Assembly (NCBI RefSeq): GCF_014899185.1 | Contig: NZ_CP045201.1 | Coordinates: forward strand, 1,906,501-1,970,500 | DNA length: 64,000 nt | DNA from: Pseudooceanicola spongiae | GTDB taxonomy: Bacteria; Pseudomonadota; Alphaproteobacteria; Rhodobacterales; Rhodobacteraceae | Direction: 5' to 3' | Part shown: piece by piece, positions 50,515 through 64,000 of the stretch | Numbering within the stretch: the stretch's first letter is position 1 | Layout: each line of letters starts with the position of its first letter | Notes under the pieces: model-generated | What the model was told of the DNA's origin: nothing | What the model saw: only the letters and a program-made list of their open reading frames with translations | Databases searched by the model: none | Position numbers and translations under genes: made by a program

Positions 50515-50557
50515 CCACCGCCCGACAGGGCATTGCGCGGCAATGTCCCGAGAGGGG
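50515..50557 (+). repeat. Palindromic mini-element PA-1 (type A) inside OrfB
   Basis: Inserted after RRFGY; it reads CCGCCCGACAGGG, a hairpin core CATTGC-GCG-GCAATG, then TCCCGAGAGGGG. After it the expected transposase sequence resumes with RLHLLLRREGW. Confidence 0.85.
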
Positions 50558-50654
50558 GCGGCTCCATCTTCTGCTGCGACGTGAGGGCTGGTCCGTGAAC
50601 TGGAAGAAGCTGTATCGCATCTACAAGGAGGAAGGCCTCACAGTGCGCAAACGC

Positions 50655-50694
50655 TCCTTTCGGGCATTGCTTCGCAATACCCTGTCGGGCAAGG
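50655..50694 (-). repeat. Palindromic mini-element PA-2 (type A, reverse) inside OrfB
   Basis: Forty bases; in reverse orientation GCCCGACAGGG, core TATTGC-GAA-GCAATG, CCCGAAAGG. Removing exactly 50655-50694 joins CGCAAACGC to GGTGGCCGA and restores the transposase frame [10 protein letters not shown]. Confidence 0.88.
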
Positions 50695-51273
50695 GGTGGC
50701 CGAAAGCGTGCCCTTGGCACCAGAGCGCCTATGGCCATTCCGCAGGGGCCGAACCAGCGCTGGAGTCTGGACTTCGTGTCCGACAGCCTGTCCTGCGGCC
50801 GTCGGTTCCGGATATTGAACGTGATCGATGACTTCAGCCGTGAGTGCTTGGCGGCCATTGTCGACACCTCTCTGTCGGGCATCCGCGTCGCCCGCGAGTT
50901 GGACCGGATCGCTGAGATGCGGGGTTACCCCTGCATGGTGGTCAGCGACAACGGGACGGAGCTAATCAGCAACGCGATCCTGAAGTGGCAAGAGGATCGG
51001 AAGGTTGAGTGGCACTACATCGCCCCGGGCAAGCCCATGCAAAACGGGTTCGTTGACTCTTTCAATGGCCGGATGCGCGATGAATTACTGAACGAGCACC
51101 TCTTCGACACCTTGCGCCATGCCCGCTATTTAGTGGCGGCATGGCGCGATGACTTCAACTACCACCGCCCGCATTCAAGCCTCGCTGGCCTGACAAAGCG
51201 GGAATATGCTAACCGGTCAAACGAAGACCAAAACCTGAACAGAGCTAACTCATAAACGAGGACTCTCTGGGGA

Positions 51274-53189: not shown

Positions 53190-55075
53190 ACGCTCTGCTC
53201 CAGCCTGATGTCGGTTTCGGGAAACAGGCAGCGCACGACGCGCGCGCCCTCTTCGGCCAGCGCGATATCGCCCTGCTTGCAGACCGCCTGCGCCTTCAAA
53301 CAGCGCGGCGCAAAGGCGCAGCCGGGGTCGAGGCGATCCACCGCAGGCGGCAGGCCGGGTATCGCCTCCAGCTTGCGCCGGCCCTCGCCCAGCTCCGGCA
53401 CGCAGGCGATCAGGCGGCGGGTGTAGGGATGCGCGGGGGCAGCAAGAACGGCCTCGGTCGGGCCCTGCTCGACGATGCGCCCGGCATACATCACCGCCAC
53501 GCGGTCGCACAGTTGCGCGACAACGCCGAAGTCATGGGTGATGAAGACGATGGCCAGCCCGCGTTCGCGGCGCAACTCGTTCAGCAGCGACAGGATTTGC
53601 GCCTGCACCGTGACATCCAGCGCCGTCGTCGGCTCGTCCGCGATGATGACGTCAGGATTGTTGGCCATCGCCATGGCAATGCCGACCCGCTGACGCATGC
53701 CACCCGACATTTCGTGCGGGAAACTGGTGGCGCGACTTTCGGGGTTGGGGATACGCACCTGTTTCAGCAGTTCGACCGCGCGGGCCCAGGCCTCGGACTT
53801 GCTGAGCGGGCGGTGGCTGCGGATTGCTTCGACCAGCTGATCGCCCACTCGGTAAAGCGGATGCAGCGTCGCCTGCGGGTCCTGAAAGATATAGGCGATG
53901 CGATTGCCCCTGAGATGGCGCAGCGTCTCATACGGGGCGCCGATCAGGTCCGCACCGTCATAACGCGCCGCCCCGGCAGTGATCACCCCGGGGGGCGAGG
54001 CGACCAGCCCCATGACGCTGAGGGCGGTGACCGACTTGCCCGACCCGCTTTCGCCGATGAGGCCAAGGCATTCGCCCGGCTTCACTTGCAGACTGACGCC
54101 GCCGACCGCCTTGTAAACGCGGTCCTTGACGTGGAACTGGGTCTCGAGGCCCTGCAGGGCAAGTACAGCGCCCGCATCCTCGTTCTGCGGCACTGGCGCC
54201 CTTCGCGCCACCCGCGTCGCCGCCATGGGCCGTGCCAGCGCACCAGACCGCAGGCGCGGGTCCAGCGCGTCGCGGACCCCGTCCCCCAGCAGGTTGATGC
54301 CCATCACGATCACGAGGATCATCGCCCCCGGCACGACCGAGGTCAGCGGATGCGTGATCAGCGCGCCGCGCGCCTCGCCCAGCATGCTGCCAAGGTCGGC
54401 TTGGGGCGGTTGCGAGCCGAGGCCGAGAAAGCTCAGCCCCGCCGTTTCGAGGATCATCCAACCGATGGTCGTCGACATGGCAATGACGATGACCGGCACG
54501 ACATTGGGCAGGATCTCGGAGAAGATGATGCGGGTGTGACCCAGCCCGGCCAGCCGCGCGGCATCGATGAATTCCTTGTGCGCCAGCCCGACGGTGACGC
54601 CGCGGATGTTGCGCGCGAAAAAGGGGACGTTCACCGCCGCCACGGCGATCAGCGCGTTGACCAGCCCGGGGCCGAGGGCCGCGACGATGGCCAGCGCCAG
54701 CAGGATATAGGGAAAGGCCATAAGCATGTCGACGCCGCGCATGATCAGGTTGTCCGTGCGCCCACCGAAGTAGCCAGCGATGATACCGATCGCCGCACCG
54801 ATCGAGGCGGCGAAGACCGCAGCGGCGATCCCGACGGCCAAGCTCAGCCGGGTGCCCCAGAGCAGGCGGCTCAGCTGATCGCGACCCAGGTGGTCGGTGC
54901 CCAGCAGATGTCCTGCGCTCAGAACCGGCTGAAAGCGGTTGGCGGTGTCGGTGGCATCGGGATTGGCCAGCGGCAGCACCGGCGTCAGCAGGGCCAGCGC
55001 CAGAACGATCAGCAGCACGACGCCGCCAGCAGCCGCCAGACGGTTGCGCAGAAGCAGGGTCAGGAACTGGCTCAT
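53186..55075 (-). CDS. Fused peptide ABC permease-ATPase (DppC-DppD fusion)
   Basis: The 629-residue protein joins two usually separate subunits. Residues ~1-285 are a DppC-type permease ([68 protein letters not shown]). After a linker of about 25 residues an OppD-type ATPase follows (Walker [10 protein letters not shown], signature [16 protein letters not shown], Walker [13 protein letters not shown]-terminal GCAFAPRC). Such fusions are known in alphaproteobacteria but are a minority form. It overlaps both neighbours by 4 bases. Confidence 0.9.
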
Positions 55076-56019
55076 GTCTTGATCCTCGGGTCCAGAAGGC
55101 TTTGGGCGACATCGACCGCGATGTTGAACAGCACGTAGCAGGCGGCGACGAAGACCACCCCGCCCTGCACCAGCAGGATGTCGCGTTTCAGGATGGCATC
55201 GACCAGCATCCGCCCCACGCCGGGCCATTGGAACACCATCTCGATATAGACCGCCCCGGACAGCACGAAGCCGGCCTGAATGCCCAGCACCGGGATGATG
55301 CTGACCATGGCAGAACGCAGCGCATGCCCCCAGATCACCCGCCCCTCGCTCACGCCCTTGGCGCGAGCGGTACGGATGTAGTCCTGGCGCAGCACCTCGA
55401 GCATTGCGCCCCGCGACAGCCGCGCGACGACACCGGTGGCCACCACCGACAGCGCCAACGCCGGCATCACCAAATGGTTAGCCACATCGGCAAACCCGCC
55501 GCCGCCGTAGGCCATCTTCATCCCCGACACCGGGAACCAGCGCAGATCGACGGCGAAGATCAGGATCATCATCATGCCCAGAAAGAAGCTCGGGATCGAG
55601 ATGCCCAGCAGCACGACGAAGGTGATCGCCTTGTCCGCCAGCCCGAACTGGCGCGCCGCGCTGACCACGCCCGCCGCGATGCCGAGGACCGCGCAGAGCA
55701 CGAAGGACACGCCCGCCAGCAGCAGCGTCGCTCCGAACCGCTCCAGCACCTCGTCCAGTACGGGCCGGTTGAGCGCGAAGCTCTGCCCGAAGTCGCCCTG
55801 CAGCATGTTGCCCAGCCAGATGAAGTACCGCGTGACCAGCGGCGCATCCAGGCCGAGGTCCCGGTTCAGCTTGGCGACGTTTTCAGGGGTGGCGTAGCTG
55901 CCAAGGATCGCCAACGCCGGATCGCCCGGGATCAGCGCCATGATCAGGAAGACGATCACCGTGATCCCCAGCAGCACCGGGATGGCCGAGAGCAGGCGTT
56001 TCAGGATGTAGCCGGTCAT
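55072..56019 (-). CDS. Peptide ABC transporter permease (DppB-like)
   Basis: The 315-residue permease has the DppB N terminus (TGYILKRLLSAIPVLLGITV), GDFGQSFALNRPVLDEVLERF, the coupling region QDYIRTARAKGVSEGRVIWGHALRSA (read in parts) and six helices. ATG 56019 is chosen because MTGYILK is the family start. It forms the heterodimeric channel with the permease half of the fusion. Confidence 0.9.
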   Translation of the reverse strand: MTGYILKRLLSAIPVLLGITVIVFLIMALIPGDPALAILGSYATPENVAKLNRDLGLDAPLVTRYFIWLGNMLQGDFGQSFALNRPVLDEVLERFGATLLLAGVSFVLCAVLGIAAGVVSAARQFGLADKAITFVVLLGISIPSFFLGMMMILIFAVDLRWFPVSGMKMAYGGGGFADVANHLVMPALALSVVATGVVARLSRGAMLEVLRQDYIRTARAKGVSEGRVIWGHALRSAMVSIIPVLGIQAGFVLSGAVYIEMVFQWPGVGRMLVDAILKRDILLVQGGVVFVAACYVLFNIAVDVAQSLLDPRIKT

Positions 56020-56105
56020 ACGGGCACTTTCTGGCTGGGGCCGCACGGGGCCGCTCAGGTCTGCGAAAGGTCGCCCGCACGTTCAGGGCGCGGGCGACCC
56101 ATGGC

Positions 56106-57689
56106 TCAGTTCTTTACGACGTCCTTCAGCAACAGGAAGAACGACGGCTCAAGCGCGAAGTTTTCGACCTTGTCGCTGGCGACGGCGTTCTGCTTCCAGT
56201 TGGCGACGAACAGCCAGGGCGCGTCGTCATGCACGATTGCCTGCATCTGCTTGTAGAGCGTGGCGCGTTCGGACTGGTCGGTGGCGACACGGGCCTTCTC
56301 CAACAGGCTGTCGACCTCAGGGTTGGAATAGTAGCCCGAGTTGAAACCGCCCTTGTCCGGCCAAGCATCGCTGCGCAGCGCAAGGTAGGGCAAGGTGTCG
56401 GGATCGTTGGTCATCCAGGCCATCTCGGCCATGTCCGCCTTGCCCTCGAGTCCGGGGTTCACCTCACCGAGGAAGGTATTCCACTCATAGGTTTCGATCT
56501 TGACGTCGAAACCGACGGCCTTGAGGTCGGCTTGGATCGCGGTGCCCATGGCGATCGGGTCCAGCATGCCCGAGCCGCCCTCGGTCACGAAGAAGGTCAC
56601 CTCGGGGTGTTCCTGCCCGGCCTCGGCCAGCAAGGCCCGTGCCTTGTCAGGATCATAGGCATAGGGCTGCACGTCCTCGTTATAGGCCCAGGCAAAGGCT
56701 GGCGGGGTCGGCCCGGCAGCAACCTCGGCAGTGCCCTCAAGCACGTTGTCGACAAGGGCTGCCTTGTTGACCGCATAGTTCGCCGCCTGACGCACCAGCT
56801 TGTCGGCAAAGGGGCCTTCCTTGGCGTTCAGGATCGCGAACCAGACGTGCGGGCCAGCCTGCTCGAACACCTGATACGGATCGCCTTCAAACTCAGACAG
56901 CGCGACGGGAGGCACCTCGACCATCAGGTCGATGCCGCCTGCCAGCATCTCGGCGGTGCGGGTGTTGGCGTCGGTGATCGGGCGGAACACCAGGGTTTCC
57001 GTGGCCGGCGCGCCGTCCCAGTAGTCGGGATTGGCGTTCAGGATCACATGCTCGTTCGACTTCCACTCGGCAAAGGAAAACGGCCCCGTGCCACTGGGAT
57101 TGCGGCCGAAGTCCGCGCCGAATTTCTCAACCGCAGCAGGCGAGACGATCAGACCTGTCGGATAGGCGAGGTTCGACAGGAACGGGGCATAGGGCGCGCT
57201 CAGCTTGAATTCGACCGTCAACGGGTCGGCCACCGTCACCTCCTCGACCGAGGAGAAGAAGAAGGACAGCGGAAAGGGCCCCGTGTCGTGGAAGGGGTGA
57301 TCTTCCTTCAGCATCCGGTCGAAGTTGAACTTCACCGCCTCGGCGTCGAAATCCGATCCGTCGTGGAACGTCACGCCTTCACGCAGATGGAAGGTATAGA
57401 GCGTGCCATCCTCGTTGATGTCCCAGCTTGAGGCCAGCGCCGGTTCAACCTCCAGCGTGCCGGACTTGTAGCGCACCAGCCCGTCATAGACGTTCATCAG
57501 GATACGGAAGTCGTTGACGGCCGTGACCGCCGCCGGGTCGAGCGCCTTCGGCTCGGCGATCTGCCCAACGATCAGAACCCCGGGCGGGGTTTGCGCCATC
57601 GCAGGGGAAAGGGCGCCAAGAGCCAGCGACATCGCCACCCCTGCCCCCAGCACGCTGCGGCGCGTCCATGTGCTGAAATTCTGTGTCAT
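56106..57689 (-). CDS. Peptide ABC transporter substrate-binding protein (DppA/OppA family 5)
   Basis: The 527-residue protein has a twin-arginine-like signal peptide (STWTRRSVLGAGVAMSLALG) and the family 5 solute-binding fold (LREGVTFHDGSDFDAEAVKF, NPSGTGPFSFAEWKSNEHV, NANPDYWDGAPATETL). AGGAGTGGCCG precedes ATG 57689. It delivers peptides, opines or glutathione-like ligands to the permease. Two GntR-type sites lie just upstream. First gene of a four-gene operon running to 52233. Confidence 0.9.
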   Translation of the reverse strand: MTQNFSTWTRRSVLGAGVAMSLALGALSPAMAQTPPGVLIVGQIAEPKALDPAAVTAVNDFRILMNVYDGLVRYKSGTLEVEPALASSWDINEDGTLYTFHLREGVTFHDGSDFDAEAVKFNFDRMLKEDHPFHDTGPFPLSFFFSSVEEVTVADPLTVEFKLSAPYAPFLSNLAYPTGLIVSPAAVEKFGADFGRNPSGTGPFSFAEWKSNEHVILNANPDYWDGAPATETLVFRPITDANTRTAEMLAGGIDLMVEVPPVALSEFEGDPYQVFEQAGPHVWFAILNAKEGPFADKLVRQAANYAVNKAALVDNVLEGTAEVAAGPTPPAFAWAYNEDVQPYAYDPDKARALLAEAGQEHPEVTFFVTEGGSGMLDPIAMGTAIQADLKAVGFDVKIETYEWNTFLGEVNPGLEGKADMAEMAWMTNDPDTLPYLALRSDAWPDKGGFNSGYYSNPEVDSLLEKARVATDQSERATLYKQMQAIVHDDAPWLFVANWKQNAVASDKVENFALEPSFFLLLKDVVKN

Positions 57690-57723
57690 CGGCCACTCCT
57701 GTCTCGCGATTGTCATTTATTGA

Positions 57724-57735
57724 TCATGATAAATT
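57724..57735. promoter_or_regulatory. GntR-type site 1, TCATGATAAATT
   Basis: TCATGATAAATT in the divergent leader between the peptide ABC operon and the DUF1028 gene. The same motif recurs at 57752 and in the GntR gene's own leader. Confidence 0.68.
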
Positions 57736-57751
57736 GAAGTCACGCAAATTT

Positions 57752-57763
57752 TCATGATAAATT
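57752..57763. promoter_or_regulatory. GntR-type site 2, TCATGATAAATT
   Basis: Second identical TCATGATAAATT, 28 bases from the first and in the same orientation. Confidence 0.68.
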
Positions 57764-57791
57764 CAAGAGGCAAGTAATCTGGAGGTTGCCC

Positions 57792-58499
57792 ATGACGTTT
57801 TCCATTCTCGCCCGTGACGCCGAAACAGGCATGCTCGGCGGTGCGGCGGCGACCGGATCGCTTTGTGTCGGGGGCTGGGTACTGCGCGGCCGGGTCGAGG
57901 CGGGGCTTTCGGCCAGCCAGGGCACCGCGCCATCGACGTTGTGGGGCGAGGCCACGCTGGATGAAATGCAATCGGGGGCCTCAGCGGCGCAGGCCGTGTC
58001 GCGGGTCACCACGCCGGACACGGGGCGCGCACACCGCCAGTTGGCCGCGCTGGACACTCACGGCGGCACGGCAGCCTTTACCGGCGACGCCTCGGTGCCG
58101 GCCTGCGCCAGCCGCAGCGCCGAAAGGGTCATCGTCACTGGCAACATGCTGACCAGCGAATCGGTTCTGGACGCCACGCTTGAGGCCTACGTCTCGGCCA
58201 CCGGCTCGATGGCGGAACGGCTGCTGCAGGCACTGCAGGCGGGCGAAGCCGCAGGCAGCGACAGCCGCGGGCTGATGTCCGCCGCGCTGCTTTGCCTCGG
58301 CCCCGACATGCCGCCGCTAAGCCTGCGTATCGATTATTCCGAAACCCCGCTGCGCGACCTCACCGCGCTGTACGCACGCGCCACCGCCCGCCCCTACGCG
58401 GACTGGTCGCAACTGGTTCCGACGCGTCAGGCTCCGTTCCGGGCCCCATCCGAGCAGGACCTGCAACGGCTCGGGGCGGCGACCCCAACGACCGATTAG
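57792..58499 (+). CDS. DUF1028 family protein (Ntn-hydrolase-like)
   Basis: The 235-residue protein has the DUF1028 N terminus (TFSILARDAETGMLGGAAAT), SASQGTAP, VTGNMLTSESVL, ERLLQALQAGEAAGSDSRG and PLRDL near the end. The family resembles N-terminal nucleophile hydrolases and is frequently encoded next to peptide or opine ABC transporters, suggesting a role in processing the imported compound. GGAGG lies six bases before ATG 57792. It diverges from the ABC operon under two GntR-type sites. Confidence 0.88.
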   Translation: MTFSILARDAETGMLGGAAATGSLCVGGWVLRGRVEAGLSASQGTAPSTLWGEATLDEMQSGASAAQAVSRVTTPDTGRAHRQLAALDTHGGTAAFTGDASVPACASRSAERVIVTGNMLTSESVLDATLEAYVSATGSMAERLLQALQAGEAAGSDSRGLMSAALLCLGPDMPPLSLRIDYSETPLRDLTALYARATARPYADWSQLVPTRQAPFRAPSEQDLQRLGAATPTTD

Positions 58500-58515
58500 G
58501 CGAGGCGGGTCACGC

Positions 58516-59289
58516 TCAAGGCGTCAGGAACCGCTTCAGCATCAGCGCCTCCTGCCCCTCCATCAGGCTCTCGGCGGTCGCCATGTGGTCGGCCATGACC
58601 TGCCGCGCGCGATCCGCATCGCCCATGCGCAGCGCCTCGACCAGCTCCAGCTGAAATGCCCGCCCGCGCTGCCACAGCTCGCGGTTGGGCGGAGCGTAAA
58701 GATGGCGATAGACCGTCAGGTCGCTGAGGATCTGTGCCATGAAGCCGATGACGAACCCCAGCAGTTCGTTGCGCGCAAAACCCGCCAGCAGCTGGTGAAA
58801 CCGCAACGAGGCGACGTGCTGTTCGCGCTCCTCATCGACTGTCACCGATGGCGCGTCGTAGCTGGCGATCACCGTCTCGAGCTCGGCCAGTTGCTCGGCC
58901 GTCAGCGTCCCGGCGAGCGAGGCGACAAGCTCCGGCTCAAGCAGGCGGCGCATCTGGTAGATGTCCTTCAGCGTCAGATCGCGGAAGTAAAAGTAGTTGC
59001 CCAGCAGAGCGCGCGCGCGCTCGCCCGAGACTTCGTGGACGAAACTGCCGCCACCCGGGCCGGTACGCGTCTTGACCAACCCCTGCGCCTCGAGAATGCG
59101 CATCGCCTCGCGTATTGTGCCTTTTGACATGGCAAAACGTGCGATCAGCTCGGCCTCGCTGGGCAGACGGTCGCCCATGCGTAGCCCCTGCTCGACCACC
59201 CAATCCTTGATCTGGTCGGCCACCTGAACGGGACGCGACCTCCGCGCAGGGGCGGCCTTGTCACCGTCGAATATCTCGCGATTTTTCAT
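58516..59289 (-). CDS. GntR/FadR family transcriptional regulator
   Basis: The 257-residue protein has a GntR winged helix (VQVADQIKDWVVEQGLRMGD, RLPSEAELIARFAMSKGTIRE) and a FadR-type FCD ligand domain with the metal-binding His pattern (LRFHQLLAGFARN). ATG 59289 is chosen since the upstream in-frame extension is non-conserved. The site TCATGATAATTT overlaps its start, matching the two sites in the peptide ABC / DUF1028 leader, so it is the probable regulator of that cassette and of itself. Confidence 0.9.
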   Translation of the reverse strand: MKNREIFDGDKAAPARRSRPVQVADQIKDWVVEQGLRMGDRLPSEAELIARFAMSKGTIREAMRILEAQGLVKTRTGPGGGSFVHEVSGERARALLGNYFYFRDLTLKDIYQMRRLLEPELVASLAGTLTAEQLAELETVIASYDAPSVTVDEEREQHVASLRFHQLLAGFARNELLGFVIGFMAQILSDLTVYRHLYAPPNRELWQRGRAFQLELVEALRMGDADRARQVMADHMATAESLMEGQEALMLKRFLTP

Positions 59290-59297
59290 GATAATTT
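59286..59297. promoter_or_regulatory. GntR-type site 3, TCATGATAATTT
   Basis: Overlaps the GntR start region and differs from the other two copies by one base. This position fits autorepression. Confidence 0.6.
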
Positions 59298-59380
59298 TCT
59301 GACAGCAAAAGGACCGGTGCGCAATGCCTAGGCCTTTCGATTTGAAGCACGGCAGCTTCGTGGCGTCCGTCCGAGCCATA

Positions 59381-59800
59381 ATGGCCATCTTTAAATATGA
59401 GACTGCTAAACTTGATTATTCCCTAGCAACTTCAACCTTCGATGCCGCTCTGCTCAGTTTTCTCGAAGCCAACCTGCTTCTGATCCGTAGCGACTATGTC
59501 CATGAACGCAAAATCTTCGTTACCTGCGAACTGAACCACGAACTTGAACGGCTGAGGCTGCGCCCCCCGAACCAGTTCGCAAGCGCCTTCTACCAGCTCC
59601 AGGAAGACCTGATGCCGGTCATGGAAGAGCGTGTGATCCGCGCGTGGCACTGTACCAGGATGACAGGCGGAGAAATCGCTGACATGCTTCGCGACGGTAT
59701 CCAGATATCAAGACCCGAGACGCTTTCCTGCCAGCGCGCGTATCGGCTGCGCCATGGAAACAAGGGGTCAGAGGCGGGCCAGATCACAAACAGATTTTTT
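59381..59800 (+). pseudogene. Hypothetical gene truncated by IS481-type insertion
   Basis: From MAIFKYETAKLDYSLATSTF to about EIADMLRDGIQISRPETLSC the sequence looks like a genuine protein; a segment VIRAWHCTRMTGGEIADMLRDGI resembles a conserved hypothetical family (HYTR...DGI pattern). The frame then runs into the left flank of the IS481-type element and on to 60019 without natural meaning. I know no function for it. Confidence 0.5.
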
Positions 59801-59952
59801 CAACAACATAGGCGCATTCCAGACCCTAGTTGTTTGATCCCACGGTTTGATGGTGCGATCCTTTCTCAGGCTTGGAAGGAAGCATTATGGGACAAGTTCG
59901 TCACGGGAGCGCCACGACAACGCACTCCGTCAGAGCTGCAATACAGCGATCC

Positions 59953-59993
59953 GCTGCCCGGCAGGGTCATGCGCAGCATGATCCCGAGAGGGG
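59953..59993 (+). repeat. Palindromic mini-element P1 (type A)
   Basis: GCTGCCCGGCAGGG, hairpin core TCATGC-GCA-GCATGA, TCCCGAGAGGGG, inserted between transposase codons for IQR-S and QASLAQ. Confidence 0.85.
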
Positions 59994-60030
59994 CAAGCTT
60001 CGCTCGCGCAGTTAAGTAAGGAGCTGGGCA

Positions 60031-60072
60031 GTGAGGAGGATCAGAAAACGATCCGGTGAATCGTTTTCCCGA
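60031..60072 (+). repeat. Palindromic mini-element P2 (type B)
   Basis: GTGAGGAGGATCAG, core AAAACGAT-ccggtga-ATCGTTTT, CCCGACG, inserted between ELG and NPKTVAKW. Confidence 0.85.
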
Positions 60073-60257
60073 CGAACCCCAAGACCGTTGCGAAGTGGCG
60101 AAAGCGCGCGACTGTCGAATACTTGAAGACCGGGCCAAAGGAGCCGCGTTCAACCGTTCTCACTGAAGCTGAGGAGGCAATGGTCGTCGCATTTCGACGA
60201 CACACGCTGCTGCCGCTGGATGATTGCCTCTATGCTCTTCAGCCATCGCTTCCGCAT

Positions 60258-60300
60258 CCGCCGACCGACAGGGTATTTCCGCAGGAAATGTCCCGAGAGG
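60258..60300 (+). repeat. Palindromic mini-element P3 (type A)
   Basis: Forty-three bases: CCGCCGACCGACAGGG, core ATTTCC-GCA-GGAAAT, TCCCGAGAGG. Exact removal restores SLPH-LTRSALH. Confidence 0.88.
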
Positions 60301-60322
60301 TTGACCCGGTCGGCATTGCATC

Positions 60323-60370
60323 TTGCGTCGGGGAAAACGATCCCCCGGATCGTTTTCTGACTCTCCTCAC
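60323..60370 (-). repeat. Palindromic mini-element P4 (type B, reverse)
   Basis: In reverse orientation GTGAGGAGAGTCAG, an 11-bp stem GAAAACGATCC-GGG-GGATCGTTTTC, CCCGACGCAA; lies between ALH and LQRHGISRLP. Confidence 0.85.
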
Positions 60371-60451
60371 CTTCAGCGGCACGGGATCTCTCGCTTGCCG
60401 GATGTCGAGGGCGACAAGCCTAAGCGCCAGAAGTTCAAGCGTTACCCGATC

Positions 60452-60488
60452 CACTGCCCGGCAGGCGATGCTGGGATCGCCGAGAGGG
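60452..60488 (+). repeat. Palindromic mini-element P5 (type A)
   Basis: Thirty-seven bases: CACTGCCCGGCA, core GGCGAT-gctggg-ATCGCC, GAGAGGG. Exact removal restores RYPI-GFFHI. Confidence 0.85.
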
Positions 60489-60503
60489 GGCTTCTTTCAT
60501 ATC

Positions 60504-60540
60504 CGCTGCCCGTCAGTGTATGTTTCCATGCACGAGTGGG
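60504..60540 (+). repeat. Palindromic mini-element P6 (type A, diverged)
   Basis: Thirty-seven bases: CGCTGCCCGTCAG, core TGTATG-tttc-CATGCA, CGAGTGGG. Exact removal restores FFHI-DIAEVQ. It lies only 15 bases after P5. Confidence 0.78.
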
Positions 60541-60711
60541 GATATCGCGGAAGTTCAGACGGTCGAGGGCAAGCTCTATCTCTTTGTTGGTATTGACCGG
60601 ACCAGCAAGTTTGCAGTCACACAACTCGTGGATAAGGCAGACCGCAAGACCGCCTGGGAATTCCTCGAGCGTCTGCTCAAGGCAGTCCCCTATCGCATCC
60701 ACACGATCCTG

Positions 60712-60753
60712 CCCCCCTTCTCGGGATCATGCTGCGCATGACCCTGCCGGGCG
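60712..60753 (-). repeat. Palindromic mini-element P7 (type A, reverse)
   Basis: Forty-two bases; in reverse orientation GCCCGGCAGGG, core TCATGC-GCA-GCATGA, TCCCGAGAAGGGG. Core and flanks are nearly identical to P1. Removal restores IHTIL-TDNGIQF. Confidence 0.87.
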
Positions 60754-60885
60754 ACGGATAACGGCATCCAATTCGCCGAGCAGCCCCGCAACCGGAACAC
60801 AGCATACTCGCGGCAAATGCGCTTCGACATGATCTGCGAAGCAAATGGGATCGAACACCGACGGACCAAGCCAAACCATCCTTGG

Positions 60886-60932
60886 AGCCGTGAGGATAAG
60901 AAAACAGTCCGGGGGACTGTTTTTCCGAGGGG
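60886..60932 (+). repeat. Palindromic mini-element P8 (type B)
   Basis: GTGAGGATAAG, core AAAACAGTCC-GGG-GGACTGTTTT (10-bp stem), CCGAGGGG; lies between NHPW and GQVERM. Boundaries are approximate. Confidence 0.8.
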
Positions 60933-60968
60933 CGGCCAGGTCGAGCGGATGAACCGAACCATCGAGGA

Positions 60969-61010
60969 GGGTGAGGCCGCAAGCCGATCCGGGGGATCGG
61001 CGACGGCGGA
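60969..61010 (+). repeat. Palindromic mini-element P9 (type B)
   Basis: GGTGAGGCCGCAA, core GCCGATCC-GGG-GGATCGGC (8-bp stem), GACGGCGG; lies between MNRTIEE and VKRYHYDSH. Boundaries are approximate. Confidence 0.8.
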
Positions 61011-61072
61011 ACGTGAAACGATACCATTACGACAGCCATGATCAGCTGCGCACGCACCTCGCCGACTTCATC

Positions 61073-61120
61073 TTGCGTCGGGGCCAACAGTCCGCAGGAC
61101 TGTCGGCTTCTCCCTCCTCA
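61073..61120 (-). repeat. Palindromic mini-element P10 (type B, reverse)
   Basis: In reverse orientation GTGAGGAGGGAGAAG, core CCGACAGTCC-TGC-GGACTGTTGG, CCCCGACGCAA; lies between LADFI and YNVARRL. It shares the CATCTTGCGTCGGGG border with P4. Confidence 0.83.
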
Positions 61121-61281
61121 CCTACAACGTCGCACGCAGGCTAAAGACCCTGAACGGCCTAACACCCTACGAATACATCTGCAAATCTGGACTTCAGAGC
61201 CAGATCGATTCATCATAAACCCGATCCACCAGATGCCGGGACTGAACACCTAGTTGCACGAGGTGCCAAAGTCTGGAAGGC

Positions 61282-61455
61282 GCAGATACTGTTGAAAAAC
61301 TCGCCGGTGAGTCTGCGCGGCTGTGTTGGAAGGAACAACGTTCCCTTTTCTGAAGGTGGAGGCCGGAGATGAGCCCCGGTTCAGTATCGATAGGAACAAA
61401 GTTCCAACTTTAGACTACTGCTGAGAAGTAGCAGGAGTTTTTCAACAGTATCCGC
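61282..61455. mobile_element. 174-bp element with 21-bp terminal inverted repeats (MITE-like)
   Basis: GCAGATACTGTTGAAAAACT on the left and its inverse on the right form 21-base ends with one mismatch. The interior has no gene but two small GGAAC-GTTCC hairpins (near 61332 and 61393). It looks like a non-autonomous transposon remnant or the two ends of a deleted IS. Confidence 0.6.
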
Positions 61456-61678
61456 AGAAAGCGGACTGTGCAAAGGCGGCCCTCTGACGAAATAGTGCGA
61501 CGCTTCATGTTGCGATGTCGCGCGCAGAAGCCGCCGTTCGCTGCAGGTGCATCATTCAGGCACACCTGATCGGCAGCAAAGCGGACAAAACCGCCCTCGG
61601 TTCCTGCCAGCCCGCAATGTAAAACGATCATCTTACCTTCATATTCAAGGACGCCAAAGGAGGTTCCCATGTTTCGAC
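61456..61678. other. Region before the LysR gene without a clear gene
   Basis: A short minus-strand frame starting MGTSFGVLEYEGKMIVLHCG at about 61670 is open but resembles nothing I know and ends in the MITE-like element, so it is probably decayed sequence. Confidence 0.35.
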
Positions 61679-62590
61679 TTACGAGATCCTCGTGTCTCGC
61701 GGACGAGCTTTGATGAAATCCACGAAGGCTCGGAGAGGCGGGGGCATGTGGCGGCGGCTCGAATAATACAGGAATGGTCCCTCGAAGCTGGGCCACCAGT
61801 CTTCGAGCACCGGGGTCAGCCGACCGTCATCCATGGCGGGACGCAACCAGTCCTCGAACGTGGCGACGATTCCCCGCCCGCTGATCGCCGTTGCAATGGC
61901 AAATTCGGCAGCTTGCGTGCTGATCGATAGGGGGCCGCTCGGATTGATCGTCAGACTTTCGCCGCCTTTTTCGAACGCCCACTCGGTGAATGCCCCGCCC
62001 GGAAACCTTGTGCGAAGGCAGGCATGCGCCAGCAGATCGCGCGGATGGCCGGGTGTGCCGTGCCTGGCCAGATAGTCAGGAGAGGCCGCGGTGGCGGCCC
62101 GCTGGCTGCGCGGTCCGATCGGCACGCAGATCGCATCCTGCGCCAGGGTCTCTCCATAGCGAATGCCCGCATCTGCCCCCCTCGAAAGTATGTCGACAAG
62201 CCCGTCATCGACCGTGATGTCGAGACTGACTTCCGGGTAGGCCCGCAGAAAATCCGCCGCGATCGGAGGCAGGATCGTGCGCGTGACCGCCCCTGGCACA
62301 TTCAGCCGCAGGGTTCCCCGCAGGCCCTTTCCGAAACCAGCGACCGTCTCCAACGCGCTGTCGAGACCCGCGAGCACTGGGACGATCCGGTTCATCAGTT
62401 CCTCGCCTGCCACCGTCAGGGCCACGCTTCGCGTCGTCCTGTTCATGAGCCGCGTTCCGAGCTGGTCTTCCAGTCGTCTCACAGCTTCACTGACCGTCGA
62501 CGCTGGAACTGACGTGACCCGCGCCGCTCCACGAAAGCCACCATGATGTGCCGCAGCAATGAAGAGCCGCAGATCCCGAACTTGATCCAT
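61679..62590 (-). CDS. LysR family transcriptional regulator
   Basis: The 303-residue protein has the LysR N-terminal helix-turn-helix (DLRLFIAAAHHGGFRGAARV, TSVPASTVSEAVRRLEDQLG, RLMNRTTRSVALT) and the LysR substrate-binding domain (GTLRLNVPGAVTRTILPPIA, VSLDITVDDGLVDILSRGAD, AGIRYGETL). It belongs to the type often paired with oxidoreductases. It diverges from the aldo/keto reductase across 93 bases and is its likely regulator. Confidence 0.92.
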   Translation of the reverse strand: MDQVRDLRLFIAAAHHGGFRGAARVTSVPASTVSEAVRRLEDQLGTRLMNRTTRSVALTVAGEELMNRIVPVLAGLDSALETVAGFGKGLRGTLRLNVPGAVTRTILPPIAADFLRAYPEVSLDITVDDGLVDILSRGADAGIRYGETLAQDAICVPIGPRSQRAATAASPDYLARHGTPGHPRDLLAHACLRTRFPGGAFTEWAFEKGGESLTINPSGPLSISTQAAEFAIATAISGRGIVATFEDWLRPAMDDGRLTPVLEDWWPSFEGPFLYYSSRRHMPPPLRAFVDFIKARPRDTRIS

Positions 62591-62683
62591 TGTTCGCCTT
62601 TTCCGATCAGGCCGTCCGCCTTAAACGATCTTATCGAACAATGAGTTGGAGTCTAGTTTCAGGGCAGCAAAAGGAGCAATCGG

Positions 62684-63565
62684 ATGACAAAGAGCACTGA
62701 ACTTGGTGGCAGCTTCACCCTGCCCGGAACCGACATCACTTTAAACCGGATGGGCTATGGGGCCATGCAGCTTGCCGGCCCCCATGTCTTCGGCCCACCG
62801 AAGGATCACGACGCGGCCGTTGCCGTTTTGCGGGAAGCGATCAGGCAGGGCATAAATCACATCGACACCAGTGATTTTTATGGGCCGCACGTCACCAACC
62901 AGATCATCAGAGAGGCGCTTGCCCCATATCCGGACGACCTGACGATCGTGACGAAGATTGGCGCAGTGCGCGGCGCTGACGCATCATGGAATCCCGCGAT
63001 GTCGGCCGAGGCTCTGGAGCAGGCCGTAAACGACAACCTCGCCAACCTAGGACGCGACACGATCGATGTGGTTAATTTACGGATCATGTTCGGAGAGGGG
63101 CCGACCGAGGGCTCGATCAAGGAGCCCCTCTCTGCGCTGGCCAAACTGCAACAGGACGGGCGCGTTCGACATATCGGACTGAGCAACGTCACGGCCGCGC
63201 AGGTCGAGGAAGGGCGCGATATTGCGGATATCGTCTGCGTCCAGAACCTCTACAACCTTGCCCACCGCAGCGACGATGCGATGATCGACGCACTGGCAGC
63301 CGATGGGATTGCCTATGTGCCATTTTTCCCGCTCGGCGGCTTCTCTCCGCTGCAATCGGACGCCCTATCCGCCGTGGCGGCAGACCTCAGCGCCAGCCCT
63401 CTGCAGGTCGCGCTGGCCTGGCTTTTGCAACGCGCGCCGAACATTTTGCTCATACCCGGCACGTCGTCGGTCGCCCACCTGAAGGAAAACATCGCCGCGG
63501 CGTCGTTGGACCTGCCGGAAGAGGCATGCATGACGCTGGACGCTATCGGATCCACCGGACACTGA
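62684..63565 (+). CDS. Aldo/keto reductase family oxidoreductase
   Basis: The 293-residue barrel has the aldo/keto reductase landmarks: NRMGYGAMQLAGPHVFGPPK, HIDTSDFYGPHVTNQIIREA (catalytic Asp and Tyr), LTIVTKIG (catalytic Lys), VRHIGLSNVTAAQVEEG and ILLIPGTSSVAHLKENIAAA (NADPH binding). It reduces aldehydes or ketones with NADPH. It resembles the YdbC/general stress type of AKRs. Divergent LysR regulator upstream. Confidence 0.92.
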   Translation: MTKSTELGGSFTLPGTDITLNRMGYGAMQLAGPHVFGPPKDHDAAVAVLREAIRQGINHIDTSDFYGPHVTNQIIREALAPYPDDLTIVTKIGAVRGADASWNPAMSAEALEQAVNDNLANLGRDTIDVVNLRIMFGEGPTEGSIKEPLSALAKLQQDGRVRHIGLSNVTAAQVEEGRDIADIVCVQNLYNLAHRSDDAMIDALAADGIAYVPFFPLGGFSPLQSDALSAVAADLSASPLQVALAWLLQRAPNILLIPGTSSVAHLKENIAAASLDLPEEACMTLDAIGSTGH

Positions 63566-63763
63566 AGGACGCCGCCAACTCATACCCCCCATGATTGAAA
63601 AGTGGACGTTCAGATAAGACATCGAGCGTCCACAAAGCGGACGTTCCCGAATTGGAGAATGCTGCGCATAGCCTTCAGCGGCTGCGTTGGGAAAACAGCG
63701 ATGCACCAAAGCCTGATTGCAAGCACGGCAAGTCAGGGCCGGGCTTGGAGGTGACTTAACGAA
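63566..63763. other. Intergenic region
   Basis: No gene or strong structure is seen; short repeats of AAGCGGAC occur near 63600-63660. Confidence 0.35.
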
Positions 63764-64000
63764 TTACCCTTTGGCTCCGTCATTGGTCGCCTCCGAATCT
63801 GGGGCAAGGAGGCCTTCCGCGAGCATCCGGAAGGCCTCCTGCGCCTTCAACAGCATCGCCTCTGGGTTGTCACAGGACGCGACCCAGAGCGCTGCATTGA
63901 GAGCGGCGCCGTTCAGAAGGCGGGAGGCGGCCTCGATATCGACGGGCCTCAGCACGCCGTTGGCCAGAAGCTGCGTGACCGCCTCGCGGGTCGCGTCGAG
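63764..64000 (-). CDS. TetR family regulator, C-terminal part
   Basis: The frame is open to the right edge of the window and reads REAVTQLLANGVLRPVDIEA, ASRLLNGAALNAALWVAS, MLLKAQEAFRMLAEGLL, typical of the C-terminal helices of TetR regulators. The start and the DNA-binding domain lie outside the window. Confidence 0.7.
   Translation of the reverse strand, partial: LDATREAVTQLLANGVLRPVDIEAASRLLNGAALNAALWVASCDNPEAMLLKAQEAFRMLAEGLLAPDSEATNDGAKG

Follow-up and report, generated by a model that had tools for sequence, protein, structure and literature searches.

Ten hairpin-forming inserts interrupt a single IS481-family transposase gene of Pseudooceanicola spongiae, and elements of the same kinds recur at the same codons of other IS481 copies and in the transposase genes of many insertion sequence (IS) families of Rhodobacterales. 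We regard these inserts as probably being non-autonomous palindromic mini-elements of this order, akin to REPs and to the Rickettsia palindromic elements (RPE), which would depend on an enzyme acting in trans, be tolerated within IS copies and spread from one copy to the same site in another. The features on which this reading is based are the precise insertion of one of the two main types (type A), conserved ends, a covarying core, an RTC target, the transposase habitat and the recurrence at particular codons.

Most descriptions of palindromic repeats in bacteria place them between genes. Elements that are widespread and reside almost only within transposase genes would be a tractable natural system for element movement, a subject long open for CGTC-tagged REPs and RPE, on which precise empty sites and recurrent spread to the same site have a bearing. 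Such a set would also address whether tiny repeats limit IS activity, as has been asked for the RUP element. The elements have the look of parasites of other mobile DNA, or of its silencers.

The host IS481 copy and its ten inserts

Positions given below without further label refer to the window, i.e. the whole 64-kb stretch that was analysed, which corresponds to positions 1906501-1970500 of a genome consisting of a single contig of 4.37 Mb. An insertion sequence with ends TGTTTGATCC... and ...CTGAACA (taken from the sequence) occupies 59831-61248 on the plus strand; it is assigned to the IS481 family by an annotated homologue and is flanked on either side by the same six bases:

59825-59830: target duplication, left copy, CCTAGT, 6 bp
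61249-61254: target duplication, right copy, CCTAGT, 6 bp

An inverted repeat of 32 nt (81%; 59793-59824 and 61271-61302) brackets this IS481, which may thus lie inside another mobile element.

Positions 59887-61253 were aligned with an annotated, intact gene of Sulfitobacter indolifex (L265:1386-2345), which encodes a transposase of 319 aa and served as reference. Outside the inserts, 910 of 958 bases are identical (95%), and the differences amount to S 32 : N 16 with no stop codon; besides the inserts there is one 1-nt deletion, at reference base 888. These figures indicate that the window gene was intact until recently. Relative to this reference the gene holds ten insertions, five of type A and five of type B, each located by the alignment and, with the exception of insert 6 (alignment only), by a covariance model:

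59952-59992, plus strand: insert 1, type A, 41 nt, codon 22 (net +41)
60031-60074, plus strand: insert 2, type B, 44 nt replacing 2, codon 35 (net +42)
60259-60301, plus strand: insert 3, type A variant, 43 nt, codon 97 (net +43)
60326-60369, minus strand: insert 4, type B reversed, about 44 nt, codon 105 (net +43)
60452-60488, plus strand: insert 5, short type A, 37 nt, codon 133 (net +37)
60504-60540, plus strand: insert 6, short type A variant, 37 nt, codon 138, exact border (net +37)
60711-60752, minus strand: insert 7, type A reversed, 42 nt, codon 194 (net +42)
about 60887-60933, plus strand: insert 8, type B with a type A-like 3' end, 47 nt replacing 5, codon 240 (net +42)
about 60969-61008, plus strand: insert 9, short type B-like, codon 252, approximate borders (net +37)
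about 61072-61121, minus strand: insert 10, type B reversed, codon 274, approximate borders (net +44)

Within the gene, the type A model matches at 59951 (+), 60258 (+), 60451 (+) and 60713 (-), and the type B model at 60031 (+), 60326 (-), 60890 (+), 60971 (+) and 61076 (-), while insert 6 gives no match to the type A model at E <= 1. Rfam yielded no match at gathering score in 55000-64000.

The alignment bears out, with net lengths of +37 to +44, the ten hairpin inserts that a reading of the sequence alone (the sequence-only reading) had proposed, and empty sites in intact homologues agree with its view of them as nested palindromic mini-elements. It also gave at least four cases (P3, P5, P6, P7) in which exact excision restores the expected protein. 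All five type A inserts have a reference gap of 0, i.e. they are pure insertions, mostly placed behind 5'-RTC, without duplication or loss of target bases, so that exact excision yields uninterrupted sequence; at the five sites of type B about 2-7 target bases have been replaced, and removing the insert exactly would leave the gene unrestored there. A rule by which inserts keep the reading frame was rejected, being true at codons 35 and 240 and broken elsewhere (+41, +43, +37, +44).

Structure and target of type A and type B

Type A reads C-R-Y-T-GCCCGGCAGG, followed by a variable palindrome and by CCGAGAGGG(G). In its fold, CCC/GGG forms the lower stem and GGCA/GAGA an internal loop, above which the upper stem varies in sequence with its pairing kept. 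Type B consists of GTGAGGANNANNAG, an 11-bp stem with a 3-nt loop, and CCCGACG. In both types the pairing is marked by covariation: 22 cells are changed on both sides in type A and 15 in type B, against shuffle means of 8.0 and 5.0, respectively, and in neither case did any of 500 shuffles score as high; some other covariation measures were equalled by 7-52 of 500 shuffles. Hairpin energy on its own is weak evidence for the elements. Shuffled versions fold equally well or better in 0 to 89 of 200 cases, depending on which of the ten inserts is considered, and -15 kcal/mol is reached by 446 of 3000 pieces of 41 nt drawn at random from the GC-rich window.

Among 159 type A copies, the bases directly before the element are C/G, R (84%), T (73%) and C (81%), a preference read from the 5' side, as GGGG was a fixed part of the search pattern on the 3' side. 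The same 159 copies carry 115 distinct cores. Five non-palindromic sequences (L113, L150, L174, L193, L205) were left out of the target and site-cluster counts.

Recurrence at the same codons of other IS481 copies

The genome contains further IS481 copies at 1288250, 1092295 and 1227k (hereafter c1288, c1092 and c1227, with W for the window copy) as well as a fragment of 64 nt at 312378. Of the inserts of W, c1092 has no more than three, and empty sites thus occur within the same genome. Across Rhodobacterales IS481 copies, codon 22 is filled in 10 of the 32 rows with data and codon 240 in 7 of 32. The core is of the same type in 8 of the 10 copies inserted at codon 22, L217 and L262 carrying unrelated cores there, and nearly the same in all seven inserted at codon 240, where the insert is also in frame and open in 7/7. 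Two further kinds of insert occur in the sister copies, one at codon 84 and the other at codons 197, 108 and 223, and a fifth in IS21 (see below), so the two classes of the earlier account, found in both orientations by the covariance models, describe the window gene well and fall short of the variety in the IS copies of the genome.

Several other IS481 copies are free of inserts, and intact copies exist, some of them on plasmids; the notion that IS481 is always riddled was accordingly rejected, and the extra sequence is missing from other copies both here and in other genomes. An assembly artefact is unlikely since the same kinds of insert stand at the same codons in other genomes. As a separate observation, a search for IS481 relatives gave 42 matches in 26 of 380 genomes, none with an open frame longer than 252 aa, often owing to single stop codons.

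In a gene tree built from insert-free columns (read for its topology only), riddled and clean copies are intermixed, and W stands beside the clean S. indolifex copy and L269, grouping with uninserted copies. W has insert sites in common with c1288 and c1227; with c1288 it shares eight sites, yet only one exclusively shared derived base. Old differences between W and c1288 lie within 3-26 nt to the left (51 nt at one site) and 13-40 nt to the right of the eight shared inserts. Moreover, the inserts are less diverged than the genes that carry them, namely by 8.8% against 12.9% for W-c1288 (one c1288 site being mis-mapped), 9.6% against 13.6% for W-c1227, 4.4% against 9.4% for W-c1092 and 8.8% against 13.2% for W-L173. 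Shared sites across copies that are separated in the tree, together with this lower divergence, suggest lateral spread, and we infer from these comparisons that inserts moved sideways between IS481 copies by very short tracts. At type B sites the clean state is the older one, because the coding bases displaced by type B are still present in clean copies. The independent insertions assumed by the sequence-only reading are thus not borne out: the same kinds at the same codons elsewhere imply that many inserts are related by descent or lateral copying.

Repeated, independent strikes at hot spots, drawn from a pool of elements and involving no lateral copying, seem to us unlikely. The target preference of type A speaks for them, as do the unrelated cores found at several sites, both at codon 22 of IS481 and in clusters with five members, where one position of an IS gene can hold unrelated palindrome cores; this pattern suggests either core turnover or repeated insertion. 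Such strikes would, however, hardly produce site-specific cores at most IS481 sites (8/10 at codon 22, 7/7 at codon 240) from a pool as diverse as 115 cores in 159 copies, nor place the odd variants represented by inserts 3 and 6 in both W and c1288.

Ordinary homologous recombination between IS copies, e.g. through transformation or transfer by gene transfer agents (GTA), would render the elements passive markers whose habitat reflects relaxed selection. GTAs occur in Rhodobacterales, the IS copies are alike and coexist, and the shared inserts are younger than the copies. The recombination tracts, on the other hand, would need to be very short at no fewer than eight sites, and relaxed selection should have left elements in other non-coding DNA as well, whereas in 464 kb of the genome (the window plus 20 spaced stretches) types A and B are confined to the IS genes of the window and a single IS110 locus, if one additional match at E 0.9 is set aside. 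We therefore consider this explanation improbable.

Other riddled insertion sequences

Inserts are likewise found in other IS families. The type A covariance model detects two elements in the remnant of an IS3-family transposase gene in the window:

50515-50559, plus strand: type A element in the IS3-family remnant
50652-50695, minus strand: second type A element in the same remnant

An IS21 element of the genome holds 13 inserts of 24-43 nt, of which four are type A, one resembles the codon-197 kind and eight belong to the fifth kind, a palindrome of 24-30 nt. This riddled IS21 is present twice (L286 and L287; C1:964701-967598 and C1:4338187-4341083), the copies being 99.86% identical over 2898 bp, and an intact related IS21 without inserts resides in the same genome. 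Two transposase frames of other strains remain open through type A-like inserts, as is the case in RPE: an IS3-like frame of 417 aa in Sulfitobacter sp. CW3 (L206:3423-4673) and an IS1182-like frame of 473 aa (L116:799-2217).

The near-identity of the two riddled IS21 copies, the hosts that stay open through their inserts, and the absence of stops outside the inserts of W with its S 32 : N 16 would all be expected if inserts were removed from the RNA or skipped in translation, leaving a functional transposase. Several observations render this highly improbable. Both orientations occur in one gene, types B, C and D replace coding bases, and the private changes of other riddled copies look neutral (N46:S27 in c1288; N41:S20 and two stops in c1227), all of which argue against splicing or bypass; W in addition has its 1-nt deletion, and the riddled IS21 could move through its intact relative, acting in trans.

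Genomic distribution

A strict type A pattern matched 87 of 390 Rhodobacterales genomes, the reversed pattern giving none among the matches listed for the same 390. A scan of genome contigs for type A returned at least 119 stretches, mostly from Rhodobacterales; about 11 are labelled as lying outside the order, five of these being chance-like. Among plasmids, 81 records match, and 59 of the 60 matches listed have no annotated gene beneath them in a collection whose annotation omits pseudogenes, the remaining one belonging to a record without annotation; all six plasmid sites inspected fall in gaps between annotated genes. One type A sequence used as query found no match in phages.

In the own genome, 41 model matches were retained, namely 24 of type A (one weaker of 25 dropped) and 17 of type B (ten weaker, partial or reverse-strand rows of 27 dropped), each search having scored 150 of the first-look candidates. 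Transposase homology lies within 800 nt of 39 of them, against 1 of 240 background pieces, and the other two are near IS110-family genes. Across genomes, 109 of 164 type A elements are near transposases (92 of 147 without the query loci) against 9 of 178 background pieces, a bias that is partly ascertainment, as the query set and the models were built from IS-borne copies and the census is not unbiased. Single scans of 26 of the 55 unassigned elements revealed transposase domains for 13, so that 42 of the 164 have no transposase assignment, 29 of these being outside the single scans. Open reading frames (ORFs) running through an element number 25, of which 20 were scanned with Pfam; domains were found in 15, comprising 14 transposases (one match below the Pfam cut-off) and one tyrosine recombinase. 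The habitat is hence not genes in general and consists of transposase genes of many IS families.

According to a simple gene caller, 84 of 110 elements fall outside ORFs, as would be expected of decayed host genes and equally of spacers. Over 146 type A loci, 33 frames are open before and 34-42 after exact excision, with a random unexcised rate of 0.49 (a random-excision control, 0.72, is invalid as its two pieces overlap). A general restoration of the frame by excision was rejected on these counts, which imply that most host genes are decayed. Six palindromes of 31-34 nt that resemble type A are without a transposase assignment (L119, L125, L141, L175, L189, L223), and four of them have a AAATACTC-like stretch upstream; they are perhaps intergenic and of a different kind.

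Possible mode of movement

If the inserts are mini-elements, an enzyme acting in trans would recognise the hairpin with its internal loop and then insert the element. Insertions into host genes would be purged and those in IS copies tolerated; riddled IS would multiply, cross species boundaries and carry the elements along, and an element within one IS copy could reach the same place in others through very short recombination or copying events. The obvious candidate enzyme, the RAYT-type Y1 family (Y1_Tnp, PF01797), is absent from this genome (0 matches) and from three of six others tested, three of the seven genomes with type A having a match.

A bolder and more doubtful version of the mini-element reading, which we put forward tentatively, is that of a guild of hairpins specialised on mobile DNA. 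Its members would enter transposase genes of many IS families, persist in them and travel with them, and would home to the same codon of other copies, riddling and silencing whole IS families, either as hyperparasites of insertion sequences or as a brake on the side of the host.

Comparison with known repetitive elements

The known systems are characterised here after the available parts of the papers cited. Rickettsia palindromic elements, which the sequence-only reading named as the closest analogy, aptly as to kind, are 100-150 bp long (105-146 bp) and lie in frame in host genes (PMC3767692; PMC2229807). They are palindromic and intragenic, form several families with no known enzyme and occupy positions common to orthologues, as do the present elements (PMC3767692; PMC2229807). 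By contrast, the Rhodobacterales inserts measure 37-47 nt against the 100-150 bp of RPE (PMC3767692), reside in transposase genes and are mostly out of frame: codon 240 is in frame and open in 7/7, and other sites have +41, +43, +37 or +44.

The CGTC- and GTAG-tagged REPs are stem-loops of 20-40 bp with a tag at one end (PMC3733652). Those with CGTC are mostly alphaproteobacterial, sometimes intragenic and, in the portion of the source available, without a transposase found; their stems measure 8-9 bp and their loops 4-5 nt, a 3-nt tail follows, and these families are mostly intergenic and lack an association with transposase genes (PMC3733652). Type B, when reversed, starts with CGTC, but its stem of 11 bp and loop of 3 nt differ, and type A has neither tag; neither type combines the tag, an 8-9 bp stem, a 4-5 nt loop and a CCA-like tail.

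RUP of Streptococcus pneumoniae is reported to favour IS regions and to inactivate transposase genes in over six IS families, and is thereby a precedent for mini-elements in such genes (PMC2229807). Unlike the present elements, RUP is 107 bp long, has terminal repeats like those of IS630-Spn1 and duplicates a TA target; type A sites lack the target duplication of a MITE such as RUP. REPINs, finally, are non-autonomous hairpins for which movement in trans by RAYT transposases is assumed (PMC3116915). The elements described here are non-autonomous hairpins too, but single ones within transposase genes, whereas REPINs are mainly extragenic in the source available, and the lack of PF01797 in this genome sets them apart from RAYT-mobilised REPs and REPINs.

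The records returned by our literature search contained nothing on such elements in Rhodobacterales transposases. The inserts work like RPE and REPs, yet differ from them in size, frame or tag, and their surprising features are the nearly exclusive transposase habitat and the lateral spread to the same site.
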